Of a stretch of 64,000 nt of DNA, positions 15,694 to 21,536 are shown piece after piece. Under the pieces are notes generated by a model. The model was not told the origin of the DNA. It saw only the letters and a list, made by a program, of their open reading frames with translations, and ran no database searches. The stretch lies in NCBI RefSeq assembly GCF_030913655.1, contig NZ_CP133189.1, positions 248,001-312,000 on the forward strand. Direction: 5' to 3'. Source of the stretch: Clostridium sp. MB40-C1. GTDB lineage: Bacteria; Bacillota; Clostridia; Clostridiales; Clostridiaceae. The position numbers and the translations under genes are program-made. The stretch's first letter is position 1; every line of letters begins with the position of its first letter.

Positions 15694-17187
15694 TTATTCA
15701 TTTTTTAAATTAATATTATCTCTCCATGGTTGTTTACTTATTAAGATTGCACCTATAATTCCTATTAAAATAATTCCCCATCCATAGACTAATAATGCTG
15801 GTAAATGGTATCCACCATAAGGTGTACGCATTTCCGTAATAAGACTTTGTGCCAAAATGAAAGTTAAAACAATTGGATTTACACATTTAATAATTACATC
15901 CCACCATTTGCCTATTCTATAATAAGATACTGAATTTGTATGGTCACGAATTGTTTTAGGTTTTATAATCCATCCAACTAAAATAGTTTCTAGTAATCCA
16001 ACTACAACTATTCCATAATTATTAATAAAGTTATCCATAATATCTAGTAGGTATAACCCTGCTCTAGTAGCGAAGGAAATACTTATAAGAAAGCCTACAA
16101 ATAAAATTCCTGTTACTACTTTTTTACGTTCCCATCCTGTTTTATCTATTATTGCTGAGGAGATTGCTTCAACTAAGGATACTGCTGATGTTAATCCTGC
16201 AAATATCAAGCAAGTAAAGAATAATACAGATAATATGTTTCCCCATGTTCCCATTACTGAAAATACTTTAGGAAATGCTATAAATGCAAGACCTATGCCA
16301 CTAGATACCACTTTATCAACAGCTACTCCTTGATTTGTTGCCATAAAGCCAAGTATTGCAAAAACTCCGATTGCAGATAAAAATTCAAATCCACAATTAG
16401 CAAAAGCAGTCATGAATGCACTATTATTTATATCTGTTTTTTTAGGAAGATAACTAGAATAAGTCATCATAATTCCTGTAGCTATACTTAATGAAAAAAA
16501 CACTTGTCCATATGCTGCAATCCAAACCTTAGGATCTTTAACTTTCTGCCAATCTGGTGTAAATAGTGTGTTTAGACCTAAAGAAGCGCCTTCTAGAGTT
16601 ACTCCCTTTATTACTATAATTATCATTATTATCAATAGAGTTGGCAATAATATTTTGCTTAATTTTTCAATTCCGGCTTTTATCCCTTTATAACATATAA
16701 ACCAGTTAATTAACCAAATTAAAGTTATTCCTATTAGTATTGGAACAATTATACCTCCAAATTCAAAAGGTGATGATGATAATTTTAATACTTCATTGTA
16801 AAAATAGTTGTTAGTGTCATTTCCCCATAATTTTTTAAAGCTTAATGTTAAGTACTTCATAGCTAAACTCAAAATCATTGAATAATATGACAAAATTATA
16901 ACTGCGCTAATTATAGGCCACCAACCAAGCCACTCCCATTTTTTATTTGCTCTTGCTATTGCTAGTGGTGTTGAACCTCTAAATTTATGACCCATTCCAT
17001 ATTCAAGAATTAATAGAGGTATTCCTGCGGTGAATATAGCGAAAAAATATGGAATTAAGAAAGCACCACCTCCATTTGAATAAGCTACATAAGGAAATCT
17101 CCATATATTACCTAATCCTACAGCAGAACCAATAGCTGCAAGTAGGAACCCTGCTTTTGTTCCCCATTGTTCTCTGGATTTTTTCAT
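15694..17187 (-). CDS. Sodium-dependent amino-acid transporter, NSS family (LeuT fold)
   Basis: A 497-residue, about 12-helix membrane protein. The NSS signature is near the N-terminus: WGTKAGFLLAAIGSAVGLGN followed by IWRFPYVAYSNGGGAF, which includes the unwound TM1 sodium/substrate region. It also has the expected TM6 (QVFFSLSIATGIMMTYSSYL) and TM8 regions. It couples Na+ influx to uptake of amino acids such as Leu, Met, Trp or Ala. Start ATG after AGGAGG. It is followed by the MetS-like subunit and preceded by about 360 bp of leader carrying a leucine-rich leader peptide and two tandem terminators, which suggests control by charged tRNA-Leu and hence branched-chain amino-acid uptake. Confidence 0.93.
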   Translation of the reverse strand: MKKSREQWGTKAGFLLAAIGSAVGLGNIWRFPYVAYSNGGGAFLIPYFFAIFTAGIPLLILEYGMGHKFRGSTPLAIARANKKWEWLGWWPIISAVIILSYYSMILSLAMKYLTLSFKKLWGNDTNNYFYNEVLKLSSSPFEFGGIIVPILIGITLIWLINWFICYKGIKAGIEKLSKILLPTLLIIMIIIVIKGVTLEGASLGLNTLFTPDWQKVKDPKVWIAAYGQVFFSLSIATGIMMTYSSYLPKKTDINNSAFMTAFANCGFEFLSAIGVFAILGFMATNQGVAVDKVVSSGIGLAFIAFPKVFSVMGTWGNILSVLFFTCLIFAGLTSAVSLVEAISSAIIDKTGWERKKVVTGILFVGFLISISFATRAGLYLLDIMDNFINNYGIVVVGLLETILVGWIIKPKTIRDHTNSVSYYRIGKWWDVIIKCVNPIVLTFILAQSLITEMRTPYGGYHLPALLVYGWGIILIGIIGAILISKQPWRDNINLKNE

Positions 17188-17242
17188 TTTCTATTCCTCC
17201 TAAATGATTTATCTAAATTTTTGAAATATTAATATTTATAAA

Positions 17243-17323
17243 TAAAAAAGTCCCATAGTTTATACTACGAGACTTTTTTACCTAGGATATTACAAAAGTC
17301 CCATAGTTTATCTATGGGACTCG
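17243..17323 (-). terminator. Two tandem terminators in the NSS transporter leader
   Basis: On the minus strand the first hairpin (17298-17321) is AGTCCCATAG-ATAAA-CTATGGGACT followed by TTTG. The second (17246-17277) is GTCTCGTAG-TATAAA-CTATGGGAC followed by TTTTTTA and pairs fully if G-U pairs are allowed. They are near duplicates and lie between the leader peptide and the transporter start. Confidence 0.8.
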
Positions 17324-17350
17324 ATTTATTTCAATGCAAATAATTAGCCA

Positions 17351-17424
17351 CCATAGATGCAAAACGCCTGTTTTGGCGATTGCATCTATAGTAGTATGTA
17401 ACGTATCTATATTTGCAATCGCTA
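17351..17424 (-). promoter_or_regulatory. Alternative stems of a probable transcription attenuator
   Basis: Minus-strand segments in order: 1 (17408-17424, GCGATTGCAAATATAG), 2 (17375-17391, CTATAGATGCAATCGCC), 3 (17351-17368, GGCGTTTTGCATCTATGG). Segment 2 can pair with 1 (9 bp) or with 3 (about 16 bp). Segment 3 also contains ATCTATGG, which is complementary to CCATAGAT in the 5' arm of the first terminator (17310-17317). This gives the 1:2, 2:3, 3:4 set of exclusive structures of a classical attenuator. Confidence 0.65.
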
Positions 17425-17490
17425 TCTTAAGTTAGCTAATAAGAGTAGATTATTCAATTTTGAAATAAACATATTAATTTTAATATTCAT
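17422..17490 (-). CDS. Leucine-rich leader peptide (22 aa)
   Basis: ATG at 17490 with a strong AGGAGG 6 nt upstream; TAG at 17424-17422. The second half reads NNLLLLANLR, with four leucines in a row encoded CTA CTC TTA TTA; two of these codons (CTA, CTC) are poorly used in such an A/T-rich genome. The stop codon abuts attenuator segment 1. It is too short to be a normal protein. By analogy with leu and ilv leaders, the ribosome would sense charged tRNA-Leu here. It is transcribed from the promoter at 17520-17548. Confidence 0.7.
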   Translation of the reverse strand: MNIKINMFISKLNNLLLLANLR

Positions 17491-17519
17491 AATAATCCTC
17501 CTCTTGGTAATTTTAAATT

Positions 17520-17548
17520 ATGATATCATACTATTTTAATAATGTCAA
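17520..17548 (-). promoter_or_regulatory. Sigma-A promoter for leader peptide and NSS transporter
   Basis: On the minus strand TTGACA (17548-17543), 17-bp spacer, TATCAT (17525-17520) preceded by TGA (extended -10). This would start RNA about 20-25 nt before the leader ribosome binding site. Confidence 0.75.
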
Positions 17549-17678
17549 TACAGTTCAAAAAATAACATAGAAAAATAAAGTATTCTAAATTATATTAAAG
17601 AATAAAATAAGGGTCATTTTCATAAAATATATAAAATATGCATAGAATGTAATTTAAAAATTTTTAAGGAGGATGATC

Positions 17679-19085: not shown

Positions 19086-21536
19086 ATGAATAAAAAAGTG
19101 TTAATTATTGGAGGGGTCGCTGGAGGAGCTTCTGCTGCTGCAAGACTTAGAAGATTAGATGAAAACACTGAAATTATTTTATTTGAAAGAGGAAGTCATA
19201 TATCTTTTGCTAATTGCGGCCTTCCTTACTATATAGGAGGATCAATTCAAGAGAGAGAAAATCTTTTAGTATCTACTCCTGAGGATATGAAAGATAAATT
19301 TAATATAGATGTAAGAATTAAAAGTGAAGTTGTAAATATAGACACTGATAAAAAAGAAGTTACTGTTAATAATTTTGACAAAGGAACTTATACAGAAAAA
19401 TATGATTATTTAATATTATCCCCTGGAGCTAAGCCAATAAAACCTAGTATCTCTGGAATAGAAAGTAAAAACATATTTACTTTAAGGAATATGGAAGATA
19501 CGGATAAAATTAAAGAGTATGTAAGTAAAAATAAATTAGATTCAGCTGTAGTTATTGGCGGAGGATTTATAGGAGTTGAGATGGCTGAAAATCTAAATGA
19601 AATTGGTGTTAAAGTTACTTTAGTTGAGGCAGCTTCTCATATACTTGCTCCTTTTGATGAGGATATGGTTACTATAGCTGAAAAAGAGCTTCAAGACCAC
19701 AATATTAATTTAGTTTTAGATAATGGAGTTAAATCTTTTACTGATAAAGAAAATAAAATAGATGTTCTTTTAAATGATGATACAGAATTAATAGCTGATA
19801 TAGTTATATTAGCTATAGGAGTAACACCAGATGTGAGCTTTTTGAAAAATACTTTATTAGAATTTGGACCTAAAGGTCATATTATAGTAAATGAAAATTT
19901 AGAAACTAATATTAAAGATGTTTATGCTGTTGGAGATGCTGTAGAAGTTGTTGATTTTATAAATGGTCAAAAAACAGCTGTTCCTTTGGCAGGACCTGCT
20001 AATAAACAAGGAAGAATAGCAGCAGATAATATTTGTGGAATAAAAACGACTTATAAGGGAACTCAAGGTACTTCTATACTAAAAGTATGTGATCTTACTT
20101 GTGCAGCCACAGGGAATAATGAAAGAATCCTTAAGAAGAACAATATATCTTATAAGATTATATATGTTTATCCTCAAAGTCATGCTTCTTACTATCCTGG
20201 TGCCACTCCAATAACATTAAAGTTGATTTTTAATGGTGAAGGCAGAATATTAGGTGCACAAGCTATTGGCTATGAGGGCGTAGATAAAAGAATAGATGAT
20301 ATAGCAACAGTTATAAGATTAAAAGGTTCTGTAACTGATTTAACAGAATTAGAATTAAGTTATGCACCACCTTATTCTTCTGCTAAAGATCCTGTGAATA
20401 TAGCTGGATATTATGCTGAAGATATATTAACAGAGAAATCAGAAGTTATACTTCCAAGAGAAATAAAGAATAGAGATAAAGAGTCTACAATAATTTTGGA
20501 TGTTAGAACAGACCTAGAGCGAGAAAATGGAGCTATAGAAGGAGATATTCATATTCCTCTTCAACAATTAAGAGGTAGGTTAAATGAGTTAGATAAAAAC
20601 AAGGAAATATGGGCATATTGCCAAATTGGTCTTAGAGGTTATATAGCTGAAAGATTACTAAAACAAAAAGGATTTAAGGCAAAGAATATTACAGGAGGCT
20701 ATAAACAATTTATGGCAGAAAAATTTAAACCTAAGAAGATAAATCATTCTGAAAAAATGATTGCTAGTATAGAAAATCCTAAAATAAGCAATGGAATAGT
20801 TAAAAATTTAGATGCTTGTGGGTTAAGCTGTCCTGGTCCATTAATGAGAGTTAAGGCTGCAGTAGATGAATTAAAACCTGGTGATACTTTAAATGTATCG
20901 GCTTCTGATCCAGGGTTTTATGAAGATATAAAAGCTTGGTGCAGAAAAACAAATACAGAGCTTTTAGGTTTAAACAAAGAAAAAGGTATAATTAAAGCTT
21001 CTTTAAAGAAGTGTGAAAAAGATGTATCTTCATCGATACAAGAAACAGCAGTTTCTACGAACACTAAAGATTCTCAAACTATGGTTGTATTTAGTGGTGA
21101 CTTAGATAAAGCAATAGCTTCATTTATAATAGCTAATGGTGCTGCTGCTATGGGCAAAAAAGTCACTATGTTCTTTACATTTTGGGGAATAAATATTATT
21201 AGAAAAAATGAACATGTTCCAGTTAAAAAGAATTTTATTGAAACAATGTTTGGAAAAATGATGCCAAGAGGAAGTGAAAAGTTAAAATTATCAAATATGA
21301 ACATGGGTGGAATGGGTGCTAAAATGATCAAAGGCATAATGAAAAAACACAATGTACATTCCTTGGAAGAACTCATACAATCAGCTATTGACAATGGAGT
21401 TGAAATAGTTGCATGCCAAATGTCTATGGAACTTTTAGGATTAAGAAAGGAAGAATTAATAGATAATGTTAAGCTGGCAGGTGTAGGTTACTACCTTGGA
21501 GAAGCTGATCAATCTAATATAAATTTATTTATATAA
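19086..21536 (+). CDS. CoA-disulfide/persulfide reductase fused to rhodanese, TusA and DsrE domains
   Basis: An 816-residue fusion. Residues 1-450 form the FAD/NAD(P)H oxidoreductase of the CoADR/Npsr family (IIGGVAGGASAAARLRRLDE; redox Cys44 in FANCGLPYY; second FAD motif VYAVGDAVEV). Residues 465-555 form a rhodanese domain with active Cys512 (CQIGLRG). Residues 570-645 form a TusA-like domain with Cys578 and Cys582 (CGLSCPGPLMRVKA). Residues 660-816 form a DsrE2-like domain with Cys777 (VACQMSMELLG). It would pass sulfane sulfur between domains and reduce CoA-persulfide or polysulfide. It is probably cotranscribed with, and controlled by, the upstream ArsR regulator. Confidence 0.92.
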   Translation: MNKKVLIIGGVAGGASAAARLRRLDENTEIILFERGSHISFANCGLPYYIGGSIQERENLLVSTPEDMKDKFNIDVRIKSEVVNIDTDKKEVTVNNFDKGTYTEKYDYLILSPGAKPIKPSISGIESKNIFTLRNMEDTDKIKEYVSKNKLDSAVVIGGGFIGVEMAENLNEIGVKVTLVEAASHILAPFDEDMVTIAEKELQDHNINLVLDNGVKSFTDKENKIDVLLNDDTELIADIVILAIGVTPDVSFLKNTLLEFGPKGHIIVNENLETNIKDVYAVGDAVEVVDFINGQKTAVPLAGPANKQGRIAADNICGIKTTYKGTQGTSILKVCDLTCAATGNNERILKKNNISYKIIYVYPQSHASYYPGATPITLKLIFNGEGRILGAQAIGYEGVDKRIDDIATVIRLKGSVTDLTELELSYAPPYSSAKDPVNIAGYYAEDILTEKSEVILPREIKNRDKESTIILDVRTDLERENGAIEGDIHIPLQQLRGRLNELDKNKEIWAYCQIGLRGYIAERLLKQKGFKAKNITGGYKQFMAEKFKPKKINHSEKMIASIENPKISNGIVKNLDACGLSCPGPLMRVKAAVDELKPGDTLNVSASDPGFYEDIKAWCRKTNTELLGLNKEKGIIKASLKKCEKDVSSSIQETAVSTNTKDSQTMVVFSGDLDKAIASFIIANGAAAMGKKVTMFFTFWGINIIRKNEHVPVKKNFIETMFGKMMPRGSEKLKLSNMNMGGMGAKMIKGIMKKHNVHSLEELIQSAIDNGVEIVACQMSMELLGLRKEELIDNVKLAGVGYYLGEADQSNINLFI

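Follow-up and report, generated by a model that had tools for sequence, protein, structure and literature searches.

A probable leucine-codon leader-peptide attenuator upstream of an NSS transporter gene in Clostridium sp. MB40-C1 and its relatives in Bacillota and Fusobacteriota

Introduction

In a 64,000-nt stretch of the Clostridium sp. MB40-C1 genome (hereafter, the window), an amino-acid transporter gene of the sodium:neurotransmitter symporter family (NSS) is preceded by a short leucine-codon open reading frame (ORF), competing stems, and two terminators, raising the question of how its transcription is controlled. A previous sequence-only reading of the window had proposed attenuation by a leader peptide and considered its use for an NSS gene unusual. 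Leader-peptide attenuation is classical and well known from the proteobacterial trp, his, leu, and phe operons. The results of this study support the attenuator reading: judged from comparative sequence analysis, the leader is in all likelihood a ribosome-mediated transcription attenuator sensing the charging of leucine tRNA and controlling the NSS transporter. The leader is real and very probably functional. Instead of an oddity of a single NSS gene, it represents a widespread family that has a new layout and swappable codons.

As to this family, the comparative data make it probable that one type of attenuator, in which the codons can be exchanged (Leu, Phe, Tyr, Trp, His, and Pro), occurs in Bacillota and Fusobacteriota. 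In this family, the codons would serve both as the sensor and as one strand of a latch helix locking the gene off without a ribosome, and tandem terminators would act as a domino. Two Rfam families, a riboswitch candidate and an sRNA, would be included, and the leader codons would label the substrates of transporters otherwise lacking an assignment.

Results and Discussion

Structure and conservation of the leader

Base-level reading confirmed the promoter-like site, the AGGAGG, the 22-codon ORF with CTA CTC TTA TTA, and the stop codon abutting segment 1, as proposed before, together with the two near-identical terminators in front of the NSS gene (Table 1). A translatable short ORF with a ribosome-binding site (AGGAGG and ATG), as expected of an attenuator, is thus present and conserved, the start codon of the NSS gene (17187) lies downstream of both terminators, and direct reading gives 8 pairs between segment 3 and the 5' arm of terminator 1. 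The transporter scored 389 bits against Pfam PF00209 (NSS/SNF; gathering score 27), placing it in this family, and LeuT is among its relatives of solved structure. Leucine is probably both the substrate and the signal, as suggested by the leader codons and the behavior of the family.

Table 1. Features of the leader and of the gene it precedes (positions numbered on the window).
Feature	Positions	Strand	Details
NSS amino-acid transporter gene (regulated gene)	15694-17187	-	497 aa; PF00209, NCBIfam NF037979
Promoter-like site	17520-17548	-	TTGACA 17548-17543, 17-nt spacer, TATCAT 17525-17520; TG before -10; 11/12 consensus matches; consensus match only
Leader-peptide Shine-Dalgarno AGGAGG	17497-17502	-	Direct reading
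Leader peptide ORF	17422-17490	-	ATG 17490, TAG stop 17424-17422, 22 codons, MNIKINMFISKLNNLLLLANLR; C-terminal part kept in relatives
Regulatory codons CTA CTC TTA TTA (Leu x4)	17437-17448	-	Direct reading
Segment 0 (P0 5' strand)	17431-17439	-	End of Leu run and next two codons; partner 17344-17352; family-wide covariation
Segment 1	17409-17422	-	First base is G of stop codon (17422); partner segment 2
Segment 2	17376-17390	-	Alternative partners: segment 1 or segment 3
Segment 3	17344-17363	-	Alternative partners: segment 2, segment 0, terminator 1 5' arm
Terminator 1	17293-17322	-	5' arm 17322-17312, 3' arm 17306-17296, then U-tract; partner of segment 3 is 17317-17310
Terminator 2	17244-17276	-	Near copy of terminator 1; 5' arm also able to pair with terminator 1 3' arm
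Spacer between last two terminators	17273-17290	-	ATATCCTAGGTAAAAAAG

To assess conservation, 560 bases were scanned for the leader at 80 NSS relatives from named genomes. The same leader was detected in 18 of them, assigned to Clostridium, Romboutsia, Faecalimicrobium, Tissierella, a Cetobacterium (Fusobacteriota), a Firmicutes metagenome-assembled genome, and one Lutibacter-labelled contig. Leu codons and competing stems, whose absence from related genomes would have spoken against the earlier proposal, were kept with synonymous and compensatory changes. LLL(L/V)A(N/D/E)L, or a sequence close to it, forms the C-terminus of the peptide, and the Leu run reads CTC CTA TTA CTG in Cetobacterium versus CTC TTA TTA TTA in several clostridia. 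Twenty of the leaderless NSS loci were scanned with Rfam for a T-box or other known RNA in its place; no T-box was found, the only known RNAs being purine riboswitches far downstream.

Codon use in the 20 leaders of the Leu class amounted to 20 CTC, 38 TTA, 7 CTA, 5 TTG, and 3 CTG, with as many CTC codons as leaders (17443-17445 in the window). CTC is expected to be an uncommon Leu codon in such AT-rich genomes, and may be the codon actually sensed.

Competing helices and covariation

The first alignment comprised 21 leaders, 11 of the Leu class and 10 found with the model of the Rfam family RF04312, and all its column pairs were scanned without bias, the stacks being ranked by paired cells. 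The top stacks were 1:2 (14 columns), 2:3 (12), the terminator (11), and segment 3 with the terminator 5' arm (8), which bears out the competing segments recognized in the sequence-only reading. They were followed by a fifth helix (P0, 7 columns) that this reading had missed, in which the last Leu codons and the following bases pair with the 3' half of segment 3. P0 probably gives many members a further state, in which an untranslated leader terminates; in the window, this helix is weak. Close behind P0 scored a sixth stack, rich in A/T and again 7 columns long.

Within the 21 leaders, P0, 1:2, and the terminator were together paired in 89.8% of cells, with 20 of 32 pairs changed on both sides and a covariation score of 0.429, compared to 0.225 after shuffling. 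The alternative helices 2:3 and 3:terminator were paired in 95.6% and 94.0% of cells, respectively. Paired cells and covariation score exceeded all shuffles for the tested helices (shuffled and slid controls); for 3:terminator, only 2 pairs were doubly changed, a number reached by 381 of 500 shuffles.

A larger alignment (A2) of 103 distinct rows, 7 antisense matches included, gave pairing values of 96.7% for 2:3, 96.3% for 3:terminator, and 87.5% for P0, the latter with 110 doubly changed cells versus 40.7 in shuffled data. Since P0, 1:2, and the terminator had been used to fit this alignment, 2:3 and 3:terminator alone represent unfitted evidence. Mutually exclusive helices ending in an intrinsic terminator were thus found by comparison. 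Of 158 members, 133 have a stop codon that ends at most 2 nt from where segment 1 begins.

Spread of the family and correspondence between codons and genes

A covariance model consisting of P0, 1:2, and the terminator (R1) matched in 59 of 206 Clostridiaceae genomes (E <= 0.01) and, at E <= 0.001, in 31 of 299 Bacilli and 48 of 98 Fusobacteriia genomes, the matches of at least three Bacilli genomes being false. Matches judged false were L124, L128, L129, L230, L256, L258, and L261; antisense-of-terminator matches (7 of 107 in one set, plus L270 on the plus strand) were excluded from the ORF and gene counts, and the duplicate rows L039, L058, and L069 were dropped. A leader ORF was identified at 96 of the 97 loci examined first (all except L214), and an ORF with a codon run at 57 of the 60 Bacilli and Fusobacteria loci examined. 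Start codons were chosen automatically and are uncertain in members lacking a clear Shine-Dalgarno.

Codon and gene were in agreement in 158 members featuring a leader ORF and a downstream gene. When the members were grouped by the downstream protein, the NSS group comprised 60 members (20 Leu, 19 Phe, and 21 Tyr), and the tRNA-synt_His family (hisZ or hisS) 29 members, 28 with His codons and one without an ORF. His codons were likewise found for amino-acid binding proteins of family 3 (21 of 21), Phe in the ABC permease group (10 of 10), Phe/Tyr in the BrnQ-like group (6 of 6), Pro in the PutP group (5 of 5), and Tyr/Phe in the AroE group (4 of 4). The 23 members preceding a TrpX-like binding protein carried Trp or Phe/Tyr leaders, and the downstream protein of one grouped member fell outside the named groups. 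Hence, a codon run matching the amino acid of the regulated gene was observed family-wide, leucine being the presumed substrate in the window. Synonymous variation was evident, with 156 CAT and 38 CAC for His, and 81 TAT and 20 TAC in the Tyr class. In the NSS tree, the Leu class formed one clade (support 100/100), and the three classes required 3 label changes compared to a shuffled mean of 28.7, with two changes each for the Phe and Tyr classes.

The binding proteins behind Trp leaders all scored above the NCBI TrpX cut-off of 390 bits (8 of 8; 436 to 625), and those tested behind Phe/Tyr leaders all scored below it (10 of 10 tested, out of 15; 269 to 384). TrpX-like binding proteins behind FYFSYFR leaders without a clear Shine-Dalgarno were found at L241 and L245-L253, in genomes of approximately 2.0-2.2 Mb. 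Because those tested stay below the cut-off, a role for Phe/Tyr rather than Trp is suggested for them. Carriers of the BrnQ family, which is associated with branched-chain amino acids, stand behind Phe/Tyr leaders at L152, L158, L160, L162, L174, and L177, and the codons suggest that these carriers transport aromatic amino acids. Transporter substrates are a hard annotation problem, for which these two groups are examples; since the codons follow the gene, the leader would predict the substrate from sequence for NSS, BrnQ-like, ABC, and SSF transporters.

The diversity of the peptides also bears on an explanation in which the peptide itself, rather than codon hunger, stalls the ribosome, as in nascent-peptide or ligand-induced arrest leaders such as TnaC or the erm leaders. 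Conservation of A-(N/D/E)-L after the Leu run would fit such an arrest, as these residues could act in the tunnel. However, the other classes combine the same architecture with unrelated peptides (HHHHHR, YYFNYYR, NPTVPR, and WQNWRR), and P0 also explains the conservation of GC(T/C/A) and its neighbors, leaving an arrest leader improbable.

Relation to the Rfam families RF04312 and RF02863

At gathering scores, no Rfam family matched the window, nor did any cover the leader in the representatives chosen from the Leu, Phe, Tyr, His, Pro, BrnQ, and ABC classes; the greater part of the family therefore lacks an annotation. At relaxed thresholds, the families closest to the leader were RF04312 ('trpB motif', 48.1 bits, cut-off 59) and RF02863 ('Enterococcus sRNA_2410', 38.2 bits, cut-off 61), with scores below the membership score in both cases. 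Related members of the Trp class pass the RF04312 cut-off.

The trpB motif was presented as a strong riboswitch candidate with more than 900 representatives by the authors' count, and the account given there leaves an attenuator open (Narunsky et al. 2024, PMC11109978). Segments 2 and 3 and the terminator of the window correspond to its P1 and P2, with the antiterminator in the right shoulder of P1; the complementarity of this shoulder to the terminator, which characterizes the motif, was found in segments 2:3 and 3:terminator 1. In its published description, as far as the sections on the motif go, a leader ORF, segment 1, and P0 do not feature (PMC11109978).

The RF04312 model spans segment 2 to the terminator and nothing further, and thus provides a test of the ORF that is independent of R1. 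Above the cut-off, 9 matches were obtained in 8 of 299 Bacilli genomes, and each of the 9 was accompanied by an ORF that contains Trp codons, follows a Shine-Dalgarno, and stops 9-21 nt upstream of the match. Eight of these ORFs contain two Trp codons (such as TWQNWRR) and one a single Trp codon (RWQSRHRR), compared to a background of 52 ORFs with at least two Trp codons at 21390 random off-site positions of the same loci.

RF02863 gave 8 matches above its cut-off in 7 of the 299 Bacilli genomes. All 7 above-cut-off loci examined, as well as three below it, have a leader ending in (Y/F)YFSYF(R), with the stop at the same model position in 9 of 10; for two of the below-cut-off loci, no Shine-Dalgarno was found. 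Like the leader of the window, the RF02863 model contains P0, 1:2, and a terminator, and at the above-cut-off loci the leader (...FYFSYFR or ...YYFSYFR) precedes aroE or a gene for a TrpX-like binding protein; the family differs in being filed by Rfam as an sRNA gene and in its Phe/Tyr codons in place of Leu. Both RF04312 and RF02863 therefore appear, on sequence grounds, to be members of the leader-peptide attenuator family.

These results leave little room for the published reading of RF04312, applied to the window as a metabolite-binding riboswitch with an amino-acid-related ligand and an incidental small ORF. The below-cut-off match of the window and the filing of the motif as a strong riboswitch candidate (PMC11109978) speak in its favor. 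However, every above-cut-off match in Bacilli has its Trp-codon ORF just upstream, the codons vary with the gene on a constant RNA core, which a fixed aptamer does not predict, and an attenuator is allowed for in the report on the motif itself (PMC11109978). The riboswitch was accordingly rejected as very unlikely. If the attenuator reading is true, the signal of the orphan trpB motif would be tRNA charging read by the ribosome, not a ligand, and the Enterococcus 'sRNA' would have to be re-filed as a member of the attenuator family.

Folding and proposed mechanism

Folding was run in three ways: on the complete leader with ribosome masks, as an order-free snapshot, and step-wise with a forced order of formation. 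With the complete leader folded at equilibrium, terminator 1 and 2:3 formed in the window whichever of the three states was imposed; for this reason, the transcript was cut before the 3' arm of the terminator for the snapshot, and the order of formation was then forced. The step-wise version is the most assumption-laden one, and it is the version supporting a switch for the window. Opposite outcomes for stalled and completed translation were obtained with the step-wise model, and with the equilibrium snapshot for 133 of 157 members but not for the window.

As soon as segment 2 has been transcribed, 1:2 is predicted to be formed (>0.5) in 152 of 157 members without a ribosome, in 152 with a stalled ribosome, and in 17 with a ribosome at the stop. 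Given 1:2, the mean pairing probability of segment 3 with the terminator arm is 0.85 in the stalled state versus 0.40 without a ribosome; the lower value is due to P0, by which segment 3 is retained in 95 of the 157 members when untranslated. In the window, 1:2 reaches 1.0 without a ribosome and in the stalled state, and 0.11 at the stop, with the antiterminator predicted given 1:2.

Based on these predictions, the following sequence of events can be proposed. With enough Leu-tRNA, the ribosome would reach the stop and cover segment 1, so that 2:3 pairs, terminator 1 forms, and transcription stops. A ribosome stalled on the Leu codons, approximately 20 nt before segment 1, would leave this segment free to take segment 2, and, with its A site on the regulatory codons, would also cover segment 0. 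Segment 3, having no upstream partner, would then capture the 5' arm of terminator 1, and transcription would continue. Once freed, the 3' arm of terminator 1 could also disarm terminator 2 by pairing with the 5' arm of the latter. Without a ribosome, segment 0, that is, the codons themselves, could hold segment 3 and let the terminator form, as predicted for many relatives and not for the window. Classical attenuators are kinetic switches, and the modelling suggests the same for this leader. The codon latch would make the behavior of untranslated leaders, an old question, accessible to point mutations.

Several observations weigh against this interpretation. In the scan of NSS relatives, 62 of 80 had no such leader, some of them with little upstream DNA. 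The snapshot antiterminator probability of the window is 0.38 without a ribosome, 0.05 stalled, and 0.13 at the stop, so that thermodynamics alone does not favor readthrough on stalling. Within the family, the stalled value exceeded that at the stop in 133 of 157 members (means 0.48 versus 0.19), hence not in all, and was above 0.5 in just 80. Moreover, P0 is predicted near zero for the window in the step-wise version, and 21 of 158 members (11 Phe/Tyr, 8 His, and 2 Trp) came out of a strict scan without a terminator. Finally, R1 was trained on the leader region, and codon identity at its matches is therefore not wholly independent, unlike in the RF04312 test.

Tandem terminators

By the strict scan, two or three terminators were present in 17 of the 20 Leu leaders. 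In the other three (L133, L135, and L137), terminator 1 keeps the arm pairing with segment 3, but the duplex with its own 3' arm is poor (-8.8 to -10.9 kcal/mol), while a good duplex is formed between this 3' arm and the 5' arm of terminator 2 (-13.0 to -13.6). Such pairing is consistent with the hypothesis of a domino, in which capture of terminator 1 would free its 3' arm to disarm terminator 2; the domino is put forward tentatively, because near-copies pair crosswise anyway.

Two constitutive terminators shielding the gene from upstream transcription, next to a small ORF present by chance, would also account for strong duplexes (-16.6 kcal/mol for terminator 1 and -13.7 kcal/mol for terminator 2). 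Yet a promoter-like site belongs to the leader itself, the ORF has been conserved jointly with the stems, and the codons track the gene, which renders mere shielding hardly credible.

Further members in the MB40-C1 genome

The MB40-C1 genome contains a second member, a Phe leader (KKFFNNHFRLGLYM) before an NSS paralogue (G000:C1:3422985-3423183, L007/L130), and a third, a VVFNSQF leader with a second terminator before an ABC permease gene (G000:C1:1206254-1206449, L131/L168). Another NSS paralogue of the same genome has a T-box upstream (L004:979-1244; RF00230, 118.7 bits), so that two kinds of amino-acid sensor serve a single transporter family within the same cell. In Firmicutes, T-boxes commonly act as amino-acid sensors, but direct sensing of uncharged tRNA by a T-box in the leader of the window itself, for which this paralogue offers a precedent, was rejected as next to impossible, as RF00230 matched neither the window at gathering score nor the leader up to E 5, and a match to a validated riboswitch family, the other finding that would have contradicted the sequence-only reading, did not occur either.

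Comparison with known attenuators

Like the proteobacterial attenuators, the leader in the window combines a short ORF enriched in the regulatory codon with exclusive stems and an intrinsic terminator, and stalling is proposed to lead to readthrough. In contrast to them, stalling in the window would free segment 1 instead of covering it, and the codons themselves provide a strand (segment 0) that can hold segment 3. The Rfam families of proteobacterial attenuator leaders were not among the matches of the leader up to E 5.

For his genes of Firmicutes, His-rich leader peptides with a terminator and an antiterminator were reported (Ashniev et al. 2022, PMC9413887; Naville and Gautheret 2010, PMC2965389), and some of the His members found here may be identical with these attenuators. 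In the passages concerned, they are described comparatively, as separate lineage-specific elements (PMC9413887, PMC2965389). Among Gram-positive bacteria, a Leu response is supported experimentally for the ilv-leu attenuator of Staphylococcus aureus, which shares a Leu-rich leader peptide and a terminator with the window, and differs in regulating a biosynthetic operon and in a proposed antiterminator whose pairing partner is the poly-U tail (Kaiser et al. 2018, PMC5794164).

A search of one open-access literature collection, which is not proof of absence, returned 'trpB motif' in one paper, nothing on 'sRNA 2410', and nothing combining Fusobacterium, leader peptide, and attenuator. In the same collection, no attenuator for an NSS gene was found in titles and abstracts, and no unification across amino acids or phyla, leader ORF of the trpB motif, or codon latch was found.

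Additional observations on the Leu class

The spacer between the last two terminators (ATCCTAGG) is near-invariant in Leu-class leaders, Cetobacterium included, and has no evident role. The contig labelled Lutibacter (Bacteroidota; L041) carries the leader together with an NSS gene of 84% identity, and is probably of clostridial origin or mislabelled in the assembly. In C. brassicae (L040), an insert of more than 200 nt, containing two copies of a repeat of approximately 100 nt, separates terminator 2 from the start of the NSS gene.

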